A DNA stretch of 64,000 bases from Nitrosopumilus zosterae (GTDB taxonomy: Archaea > Thermoproteota > Nitrososphaeria > Nitrososphaerales > Nitrosopumilaceae): the NCBI RefSeq assembly GCF_025998175.1, contig NZ_AP026695.1:994760-1058759 (forward strand). The letters run 5' to 3'. Under the pieces are notes generated by a model. The model made no database searches and had not been told where the DNA came from. It saw nothing but the letters and a program-made list of their open reading frames with translations. The translations under genes were made by a program, and so were the position numbers. Of the stretch, positions 32,439 to 34,991 are shown in pieces; positions within the stretch are counted from its first letter, which is position 1, and each line of letters starts with the position of its first letter.

Positions 32439-32634
32439 TTAACTTTAAACATTTTGAAAATCTAAAAAGTATTTTAAAATCTATCCGTGTCAATTGTTGA
32501 AAACTATGTATTATAATCTAGACAATTTAACTGATAAAAAAATTTCAGTGTAACCTTCTTTTCTGGAGGCATTCCATGAGAATCATCATCAAAATTCAGA
32601 TTCAAGAAATGTTATTTTTTGTATAATAAATCCT

Positions 32635-32802
32635 GCGCCGGGAAAGGGCGTGGTCAAATTTTTCGACACCCAGACAAACATTAATGATTTGAATCCGACC
32701 TGGTGCTCTCGTACATGGTTTACTAAAACTTCAAAAAAAGTTTCTAGACATACATGGTAAGCGGGCCCGAAGGAGTCCGTTGACATTTGTTAGCGGACCC
32801 GG
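32635..32802 (+). ncRNA. Candidate structured RNA, GC-rich island
   Basis: This GC-rich stretch lies in an AT-rich gap with no believable gene. CCGG (32638-32641) can pair with CCGG (32799-32802) to close the structure. Inside, GTCCGTTGAC (32775-32784) pairs with GTTAGCGGAC (32789-32798) as a 10-bp hairpin including G-U pairs, and AAACTT/AAGTTT forms another hairpin near 32730-32750. A terminator follows at 32824-32860 on the + strand, which sets the likely strand. I could not fit it to SRP RNA, RNase P RNA or 5S RNA. The strand call is not certain. Confidence 0.42.
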
Positions 32803-32823
32803 AATTCAGTAACGCAGGAAGAT

Positions 32824-32860
32824 ATAGGAGTAATTTCAAACTCCTATCAATTCTTTTTTT
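32824..32860 (+). terminator. Stem-loop and T-run terminator
   Basis: ATAGGAGT (32824-32831) and ACTCCTAT (32840-32847) form a perfect 8-bp stem with an 8-base loop, followed by a run of seven T at 32854-32860. It ends whatever transcript comes from the GC-rich island at 32635-32802. Confidence 0.6.
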
Positions 32861-32962
32861 AGCATATGTTGCTGCTGTACTGTAATTCTACATCATGACA
32901 TCAAAGAGAAAACAATTATCAAATGTCAGTTACATAATAAAAAAGGAAAAAGAGGTTGTTAT

Positions 32963-33583
32963 TTATTGAGTCTTTTCAGCTATCATTTTAGCAATATTTC
33001 TAGCAGAATCCACATCAATAGGTGCTTTTTCAGTCATTTTGTCAAACTCACTTGTCATGGTAGTTTGTCCAGCTTTTAATGGATAGTAATGAGTGAAACC
33101 CATCATGTTAAGACCTCTATCATTGCTTATGATAAAAATACCCTTGTCTCCAACATGATAATCAACAGAATATCTTGAAATGAACTGAGTTGTATGTCCA
33201 TCCACTTTGCCTAATCCAGTTACAGACTTGTCATAAAAGGTAACAAGATCATTGCCGTTGAGAATTCCATTGTCTTTTAAGACCTCAGTTACCTTGACAG
33301 TTACTTTGTACTGTGGTTTTACAGCGGTCTCTATGACATATTCCTCACATTCATCACAATCTGTACCTGTTACAGTTTCTTCAACCATTACGATTTCAGA
33401 ATCAACAATTTCGCCTACTACAGCTAATGCATTGATCTCAACTCTTTGGTCAAATGTCCTGTCTGCAAATTGTGTATACCCTGTTCTTTCTATGACAGGA
33501 GAATTTTCACTTACACCATATACAATAGAAGCAAAAGCAGCGATGGCAATGACTGCCATTAAGCTAATCTTTTTGTTGATCAT
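32963..33583 (-). CDS. Secreted protein paired with the metalloprotease remnant
   Basis: The 206-residue protein has a signal peptide (ISLMAVIAIAAFASIVYGVS) and a mature domain with VGEIVDSEIVMVEETVTG, a Cys pair in TDCDECEEYV, and YKVTVKVTEVLKDNGILNGN. The domain resembles the EPDR/TIMP-like OB-fold region seen in some archaeal secreted proteins, but I do not name a family. Its start overlaps the stop of the metalloprotease remnant by four bases (ATGA), so they formed an operon. It could be a partner or inhibitor of that protease. Confidence 0.62.
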   Translation of the reverse strand: MINKKISLMAVIAIAAFASIVYGVSENSPVIERTGYTQFADRTFDQRVEINALAVVGEIVDSEIVMVEETVTGTDCDECEEYVIETAVKPQYKVTVKVTEVLKDNGILNGNDLVTFYDKSVTGLGKVDGHTTQFISRYSVDYHVGDKGIFIISNDRGLNMMGFTHYYPLKAGQTTMTSEFDKMTEKAPIDVDSARNIAKMIAEKTQ

Positions 33584-34244
33584 GGGTATTGATTCTCCAA
33601 GTTTGTTGCCTCAGCAGAGGTTATCTCATATCCGTTTGTGGCTCCAAATACATAAACATAATAGCTTAGGTTGGCTGTGTTGCCATTATCATGATCCATG
33701 CCCATTGCATGCCATAATTCATGACCTAGAGTTTTTCTAACATCAAATTCTTGAGGAGAGGCACCACTGTTTTCAGCAAGCATGAATTATACTTCACTTG
33801 CATTGTCGTTGACTTGTACATCCATCTTGATATAATGAGTGTCAAGGCCACCATAGCACCAAATGAACCAGGCAGTGCAATGACGCTCAAACGCAGTATA
33901 TCCGTTTGCGCCAGCAGCTAGGTTGGATTGACGAATATGCTGTCTGCTGTTGTAACTCTGTCAATTGACATTTTCTTTCCTACACTGTCAAATTCTGTGA
34001 CGACTGAGTCTACTTCTGAATTGATAGTAGATTGTGAATGAATTTGTACTCCACTGGTTGTCTTAAGTTTCAAATCACAATTGTCTCCAGAGCAATTAAG
34101 AAAACCCAAATGTCCATCACCTGCGCTTCTTGACCATATGTAGTCTTGAAAATCAGCAAAAGCAGGAGTTATTCCTATTGTTGTGGTTAATGCAACTGCT
34201 AAAATTGCAAAAACAACGGTTATTGTAGTCATTGTCATTTCCAA
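33580..34244 (-). pseudogene. Matrixin-like secreted metalloprotease, broken
   Basis: Two reverse-strand pieces join into one secreted protease. The first has a signal peptide (VVFAILAVALTTTIGITPAF) and about 108 residues and stops at 33918-33920. Shifting one base continues as NLAAGANGYTAFERHCTAWF, then MDVQVNDNASEV, reaching a stop TAA at 33787-33789. The third piece carries the zinc motif LGHELWHAMGMDHDNGN, an HExxHxxGxxH metzincin/matrixin signature. One frameshift and one stop codon thus break a gene of about 220 codons. The downstream 204-base frame could be a truncated relic product. Confidence 0.72.
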
Positions 34245-34274
34245 TGTTGGAAGAATCTAATAAGCCGCGCTCCG

Positions 34275-34323
34275 TATATGGGTACTACTCGATCGCGTAC
34301 TACCCATATAGGTAGTACCTATA
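34275..34323 (-). promoter_or_regulatory. Repeated GGTACTAC operator
   Basis: TATATGGGTACTAC (34275-34288) and GTACTACCCATATA (34297-34310) form an inverted repeat with one mismatch around TCGATCGC, and TATAGGTAGTACCTATA (34307-34323) is a 17-bp palindrome. All share the half-site GTAGTACC. The array sits between the end of a winged-helix gene and the start of the metalloprotease remnant on the same strand, so it is the likely operator of that regulator. Confidence 0.6.
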
Positions 34324-34332
34324 GGATAAGTG

Positions 34333-34629
34333 TCAGTCCAGAATTGTTAGAATGCCGTTGTATTTTTTGTCAAACTCTGCATCAAGTTTCTTCTTGCACA
34401 ATGAAATTCCATGAGGAGTTACGTCGTATACCTGATGAGAATAGCGATTACTCTTGGTTACAAATCCTAAAAATTCCAGCATGTCAAGATATGATACACA
34501 TGTGTCATAGTGCAGTCTTGCATTAAGTGCCAGATTTGTCCTTTTTTCGTGTCCGGATTCATATACCGCAGCCAACAGACGCAGTAAAACCTTGAGATCA
34601 AATCGCTGTAGTTTCTTTTTTGCCATCAT
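34333..34629 (-). CDS. Winged-helix transcriptional regulator
   Basis: This 98-residue protein has a winged-helix fold of the HTH_45 type: FDLKVLLRLLAAVYESGHEK, then the recognition helix region ALNARLHYDTCVSYLDMLEF and wing YDVTPHGISLCKKKLDAE. It is co-oriented with the metalloprotease remnant, and a repeated palindrome starts 10 bases past its stop. Control of the protease operon is inferred from position. Confidence 0.73.
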   Translation of the reverse strand: MMAKKKLQRFDLKVLLRLLAAVYESGHEKRTNLALNARLHYDTCVSYLDMLEFLGFVTKSNRYSHQVYDVTPHGISLCKKKLDAEFDKKYNGILTILD

Positions 34630-34881
34630 TCATCAGATATTATAGTATGATGTTACTATCTTTAGCCTATTTATGATTTACTACAATTAGGATTGAGCAT
34701 ATTTTATGATAAGTGGATTAAAACGACAATGCAATAACCAGTAATTATTATTCCGTCTTACATTCAATCCTAAATACCAAATGCGTTATTGGTTTGACGC
34801 CCTGAAATTATGCAATGGCTTTGAACCAATGTTGTGCTATTTTCAGGCAAATTTTGTTCCTAGAACATACTGAAAAGTAGG

Positions 34882-34905
34882 GGCTTTGAAATTTGCGTCA
34901 AAGCC
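34882..34905 (-). terminator. Hairpin just after tRNA-Ser
   Basis: GGCTTTGA (34882-34889) and TCAAAGCC (34898-34905) form a perfect 8-bp stem two bases past the tRNA 3' end on the reverse strand. Reading on the reverse strand it is followed by CCCTACTTTTC, a modest T run, so it may end or process the tRNA transcript. Confidence 0.4.
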
Positions 34906-34906
34906 A

Positions 34907-34991
34907 TGGCGCCGGGAAAGGGATTCGAACCCCTGCACGCTTTCACGTAGCCGTTTTCGAGACGGCCGCCGTACCACTTGGCTATCCCGGC
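34907..34991 (-). tRNA. tRNA-Ser(CGA)
   Basis: The reverse strand folds as a serine tRNA. The acceptor GCCGGGA pairs with TCCCGGC, the discriminator is G and CCA is encoded. The anticodon loop CTCGAAA gives anticodon CGA, closed by GCCGT/ACGGC. A long variable arm (TACGTGAAAGCGTG) precedes the T arm AGGGGTTCGAATCCCTT. There is no intron. It reads UCG codons. The last part of the gene (GGGAAAGGG on the + strand) recurs at 32635. Confidence 0.95.

Follow-up and report, generated by a model that had tools for sequence, protein, structure and literature searches.

The GC-rich patch at positions 32635–32860 of the 64,000-nt stretch of DNA analysed here (the window) is probably a composite attachment-site scar, the distal end of an islet that integrated into the tRNA-Ser(CGA) gene at its 3′ terminus, and closes with the end module of a tRNA-integrating element family in Nitrosopumilaceae, an attachment-linked pseudoknot and putative terminator. 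Directly observed are repeats at the attachment site, associations with both tRNA 3′ ends and integrases, a T run and two interleaved stems that covary. Copies of the conserved tail of the patch, a small and apparently uncatalogued pseudoknot with a putative terminator, occur at the ends of many mobile elements of this kind.

The patch stands out in its AT-rich background, with a GC content of 0.425 over 226 nt versus 0.332 for the whole window; 20 of the 1276 windows of 226 nt are as rich or richer, and only 6 of 1276 strand-windows fold as stably as its + strand or more so. For 32625–32865, the fold z score is −3.35 on the + strand (0/200 shuffles equal) and −2.38 on the − strand (3/200). 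The + strand fold includes closing pairs, and all of the elements that a sequence-only reading had described by eye are present:

about 32722–32746, + strand: hairpin with an A-rich loop, predicted fold
about 32775–32798, + strand: 10-bp hairpin, predicted fold
32824–32831/32840–32847, + strand: 8-bp stem, predicted fold
32854–32860, + strand: run of seven T, in the sequence

A 65-amino-acid open reading frame (− strand, 32589–32786) overlaps the patch and spans the attachment cores described below. In agreement with the earlier impression that no known RNA family fits, no Rfam 15 family reached its gathering score in the patch, and a search around it at E values up to 10 returned chance matches alone (E of 2.5 or more); the sole Rfam match in the whole window is the tRNA at 34910–34991. 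SRP RNA and RNase P RNA were rejected as candidates, as neither RF01857 nor RF00373 matched and the true genes lie elsewhere in the genome, at C1:1660245 and C1:1138394, respectively.

The sequence-only reading had proposed a free-standing structured RNA gene of 226 nt with its own terminator. The + strand fold score and the closing stem speak for such a gene, as does a TATA-like stretch seen by eye directly upstream. However, a DNA search of 250 family genomes found no full-length homologue, only separate modules in relatives; the 5′ end of the patch is a tRNA-Ser repeat; and the closing stem is not clearly conserved, with a 7-bp upstream partner in 12 of 36 tails versus 5.2 expected from shuffled sequence. 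We therefore consider a single RNA gene improbable. The structured, RNA-like element and its terminator-like end stand, and the 226 nt are not one gene. The earlier reader saw a real feature and misread its extent and nature, as what lies there is probably the scar of an attachment site that carries a conserved pseudoknot/terminator module. Much of its GC content arises because a tRNA-Ser repeat, a shared arm and further tRNA-derived cores make up its 5′ part and middle:

32635–32648, + strand: attachment-core copy GCGCCGGGAAAGGG, which directly repeats the 3′ end of tRNA-Ser(CGA) in antisense
32649–32671, + strand: element-side arm beside the core, a small hairpin, common to the tRNA-Ser islands of genomes G138 and G176
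32760–32773, + strand: second tRNA-like core AGCGGGCCCGAAGG, also present at the tRNA-Arg(TCT) 3′ end (antisense) in related genomes
32792–32801, + strand: third, weaker tRNA-like stretch AGCGGACCCG, tRNA-Arg(GCG)-like, 10 nt only and possibly a chance match
32649–34909, no strand: island remnant, the integrated DNA bounded by the two tRNA-Ser repeats, in which no integrase was seen
34333–34629, − strand: winged-helix protein (PF14947) inside the island
34907–34991, − strand: tRNA-Ser(CGA), called by ARAGORN, the integration target, with the repeat at 34910–34922

The 13-mer CGCCGGGAAAGGG occurs exactly twice in this genome (G000), 2274 bp apart, with one copy inside the tRNA gene. Pairs in the same orientation are also found in G138 (806 bp apart) and G176 (7730 bp apart); G090 has a single copy and G174 none. 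The DNA between the repeats differs among the three genomes that have pairs: in G138 it holds what looks like a hicAB-like (hicB/hicA-like) gene pair (L033:2497-2923), and in G176 it encodes secreted-type and HTH proteins (named by eye). Repeat pairs with differing DNA between them imply integration at the tRNA 3′ end, and in the window, too, a direct repeat of the tRNA 3′ end flanks foreign DNA, as in tRNA-integrated elements. No integrase was found among the scanned open reading frames of the island, and the integrase family described below has no match anywhere in this genome; the islet is a relic or non-autonomous. Its other contents include a short open reading frame at 33580–33783 that matches peptidase M66 (PF10462, E = 1.3e-4) and is probably a gene fragment, and a perfect inverted repeat, GGCTTTGA..TCAAAGCC, at 34882–34905, just past the tRNA-Ser 3′ end.

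We describe the scar as composite because the second core, AGCGGGCCCGAAGG, corresponds to another tRNA, tRNA-Arg(TCT) of relatives, whose 3′ end it matches in antisense; a search for this core in eight genomes returned tRNA copies alone, besides the core in the window. The AGCGGACCCG stretch coincides in part with the 3′ arm of the 10-bp hairpin. A SINE- or retroposon-like tRNA-derived repeat was also considered and dropped, as orientation and integrase linkage fit attachment sites.

Beyond these cores lies the part of the patch that recurs in relatives:

32809–32863, + strand: conserved tail of ~50 nt, an H-type pseudoknot plus T run, from sequence models and covariation
about 32817–32820/32834–32837, + strand: tail stem 1
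32824–32831/32840–32847, + strand: tail stem 2

The tail consensus reads GCAGAAAG-C-TATT-GGAGT-GCTTTC-AA-ACTCC, followed by the T run, and forms two interleaved stems. A sequence-only model of 14 rows (R1) found it in 39 of 250 family genomes at E values up to 1e-3, and one of 43 rows (R2) in 64 of 400 order genomes at E values up to 1e-4. The R2 matches all fall within one family and cover 12 of 66 genera; a genome has at most 10 copies, and this one has 3. Exact pattern matches in named genomes number four, each in Nitrosopumilus. Nothing in viral contigs was matched by two tail patterns or by the integrase. A T run of at least five follows 42 of the 43 tails versus 607 of 6398 background 20-mers, a comparison to be read with the fact that the models that found most tails included T runs.

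Compensatory changes in relatives, to which the sequence-only reading had looked for support, are present in the interleaved stems of these last ~50 nt, in a stretch that has no homologue over its full length among 250 family genomes. With related rows not being independent in any of these covariation and G–U counts, a set of 33 rows (A2) gave 15 double-change cells versus 8.7 in shuffled alignments and 3 to 7 in slid controls, and a register-free test on 43 rows gave 159 versus 152.1 (s.d. 2.3) for stem 1 and 162.5 versus 155.3 (s.d. 1.6) for stem 2, each equalled in 0 of 300 shuffles. When the test is limited to the 15 rows in which a stem-2 arm has changed, random pairings do equally well in 55 of 1000 cases, which is not significant. 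The larger set A5 comprises 64 matches (60 newly fetched stretches, the window and the two other copies in this genome) and gave 15 double-change cells versus 2.6 shuffled (0/500) and 18 further pair types versus 12.2 shuffled (0/500); one slid control reached 14 double-change cells, but with 20.8% of its cells paired versus 91.4%. Stem 2 occurs as GGAG/CTCC, GGGG/CCCC, GGTG/CACC, GGGA/TCCC, GGAA/TTCC and GAGA/TCTC. On the + strand, G–U cells outnumber A–C cells 46 to 13 in set A5; the two are about equal, 21 to 24, in the 33 tails of A2, so that the strand bias rests on A5. The tail thus shows the two covarying, interleaved stems of an H-type pseudoknot in the register-free test and in A5, with the accompanying strand bias in A5 and not in A2. 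RNAalifold, which cannot model pseudoknots, returned 3 pairs for A2. Single-sequence folds of six tails have z scores from −3.56 (the window) to −0.27; strong stability of the tail is therefore not general among relatives.

An exact match of at least 12 nt to a tRNA 3′ end lies within 200 nt upstream of 27 of the 43 tails versus 13 of 400 random windows; it is antisense in 25 of the 27, usually at a distance of 25–60 nt. No such 12-nt match lies upstream of the other 16 of the 43, and the result is weaker when the test is restricted to the tRNAs of this genome. A search of eight genomes with the tRNA-Ala(CGC) core alone found 13 places, of which 8 are inside tRNA genes; four of the remaining five are followed by a tail, and the fifth, close to the end of its contig, lacks one. 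A plain bidirectional terminator, carried by horizontal transfer and unlinked to integration, could account for the tails that abut the end of an opposite-strand relE-like gene (G119, G093 and G011). It would not predict the spacing from tRNA-type cores, which is mostly 25–60 nt, or the nearly fixed orientation relative to the integrase, and we judge it very improbable, the least probable of the readings considered.

Tails also occur in multiples. In G119 and G093, relBE-like genes are flanked by tails in tandem, which counts against the end-module reading. At L085:6385-6998 and L086:6239-6857, a relBE-like pair sits between direct tail copies with a spacing of ~560 bp, an arrangement suggestive of cassette exchange between tails. 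Four tails on one strand within about 9.5 kb of G215 (C15:46888-56348, L235) suggest serial insertion.

The attachment-scar and end-module reading, which we prefer, draws further on complete elements. All four that we examined share one plan (core copy, tail, cargo, integrase and tRNA), with the tail just inside the tRNA-distal attachment site and an attachment repeat of 30 bp in G037 and 13 bp in G040 and G237. In 20 of the 24 tail–integrase pairs that share a contig at a distance of up to 60 kb, tail and integrase have the same strand; the integrase is downstream of the tail in 22, and the other two are the contiguous cases. In G032, where elements are inserted in tandem, integrase, core and tail directly adjoin one another, and in G020 and G176 a decayed gene lies upstream of the tail on the same strand, its last codons ending in the core. 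A 79-amino-acid piece of this decayed integrase gene has relatives in 58 of 250 genomes, though not in this one, and in most of 30 fetched loci the integrase gene reads directly into an opposite-strand tRNA gene.

The integrase is probably XerA-like, an identity that rests on fold and position. Pfam returned no integrase match for 16 of these proteins, NCBIfam XerA matched 4 of the 16 weakly, and a PDB profile search returned TAL-repeat matches only; the best match of a structure model (mean pLDDT 68) is XerA (Foldseek E = 1.9e-7). At 10 of the 30 loci (L145, L146, L148, L149, L150, L158, L165, L166, L167 and L169), a conserved C-terminal segment (like GW.FVG.LPNGKVV) apparently lies, by eye, past the main stop in another frame, and a similar segment is in frame at other integrase loci; the out-of-frame segment may reflect a programmed frameshift, a separate open reading frame or decay.

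Tails also accompany a second integrase family. This genome has a 21-kb tRNA-Val(CAC) island (C1:579093-600227; L232, L233) with a tail at its far end (C1:600180) and an integrase of that family (PF00589, E = 1.6e-4, below the cut-off) that reads away from the tRNA; in G158, a fragment of a second-family integrase is divergent to a tail. The tail can therefore not be the integrase terminator in every element.

Because these second-family integrases argue against a strict role as integrase terminator, a DNA-arm role is a serious rival, if a rather unlikely one. The tail would then be a DNA site that is never RNA, an attP arm or a site for an accessory protein, formed by two inverted repeats that overlap, together with a T tract able to bend. 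Its fixed position beside the core across many different tRNAs would fit such a site, as would the lack of strand bias in A2. A further point in its favour is the similarity of recombinase sites to inverted repeats separated by 8 nt. Against it stand the covariation of two interleaved stems in the manner of an H-type pseudoknot, the + strand G–U bias of A5 and a T run that is found on one side only.

On the end-module reading, the tail may be transcribed, may terminate transcription and may act on the integrase transcript. The proposed element order is an integrase gene whose stop codon falls at the core or nearby, the core, 25–60 nt, the pseudoknot and the T run. Transcription of the integrase gene in the excised circle would cross the core and stop at the pseudoknot and T run. 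The integration crossover would part integrase from pseudoknot, leaving the integrase to read antisense into the tRNA gene, and the pseudoknot would stay at the opposite end, reading inward, where it could block transcription from the flank. The simplest function would be to end the integrase transcript in the circle and to shield the element end when integrated. More tentatively, and as a possibility that we rate as less likely than not, the tail could be a new archaeal RNA family that senses topology: the integrase mRNA would have a 3′ pseudoknot and a proper terminator only in the circle, since it would lose the pseudoknot once the element integrates at the tRNA.

Phage lambda offers a parallel. 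Its layout is int–attP–sib/tI, with a structured 3′ element beyond attP that is parted from int by integration; the int retroregulator sib/tI was reportedly described by Schindler and Echols in 1981. The tail is likewise a structured 3′ element that lies across the attachment core from the integrase gene and is parted from it by integration. This placement, across the core and downstream in the circle, is seen where integrase, core and tail are contiguous (G032, G020 and G176) and not in the window itself or with the second integrase family. Unlike sib/tI, the tail is an archaeal H-type pseudoknot, and RNase III-type processing and retroregulation are features of the lambda system. The lambda retroregulator and terminator are cited in the accessible parts of PMC5300877 and PMC6379469.

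We found no description of such an attachment-linked pseudoknot/terminator in open PMC papers. STAXI, with which the tail may be compared, is a bacterial motif. As excerpted from its description (PMC2864571), it resembles the tail as a pseudoknot near integrase and DNA-handling genes for which RNA or single-stranded DNA is also undecided, and differs in having two or three tandem repeats; the tail has no Rfam match. ICEKp1, in the accessible text of PMC13023037, is similarly an element at a tRNA site with terminator-like stem-loops and an int transcript that varies with integration state, but it is bacterial, its stem-loops lie in the int 5′ untranslated region and it uses promoter switching. 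Closest in host are the integrated elements of thaumarchaea (Krupovic et al. 2019, PMC6563490), which, in the available portions of that survey, share short attachment repeats at tRNA 3′ ends (tRNA targets in 39 of 68 with defined sites; median attachment site 17 bp), tyrosine integrases and cryptic elements; neither a structured RNA nor a terminator next to the attachment site is mentioned in those portions, and the window islet differs in having no integrase. The word ‘terminator’ occurs 0 times in the accessible text of a review of archaeal recombinases (PMC8371274). The pseudoknot/terminator module is absent from the catalogues searched, and its position appears analogous to that of a known regulator.

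Integration control in the mobile elements of ammonia-oxidising archaea seems little studied. A pseudoknot at a fixed place beside the core provides a marker for element ends, even those of integrase-less relics, and the tail offers an idea of how an integrase gene could sense the integration state of its element. If true, such a topology sensor would give archaea their own, independent equivalent of lambda sib/tI retroregulation, spread over several tRNA targets and integrase lineages in Nitrosopumilaceae.
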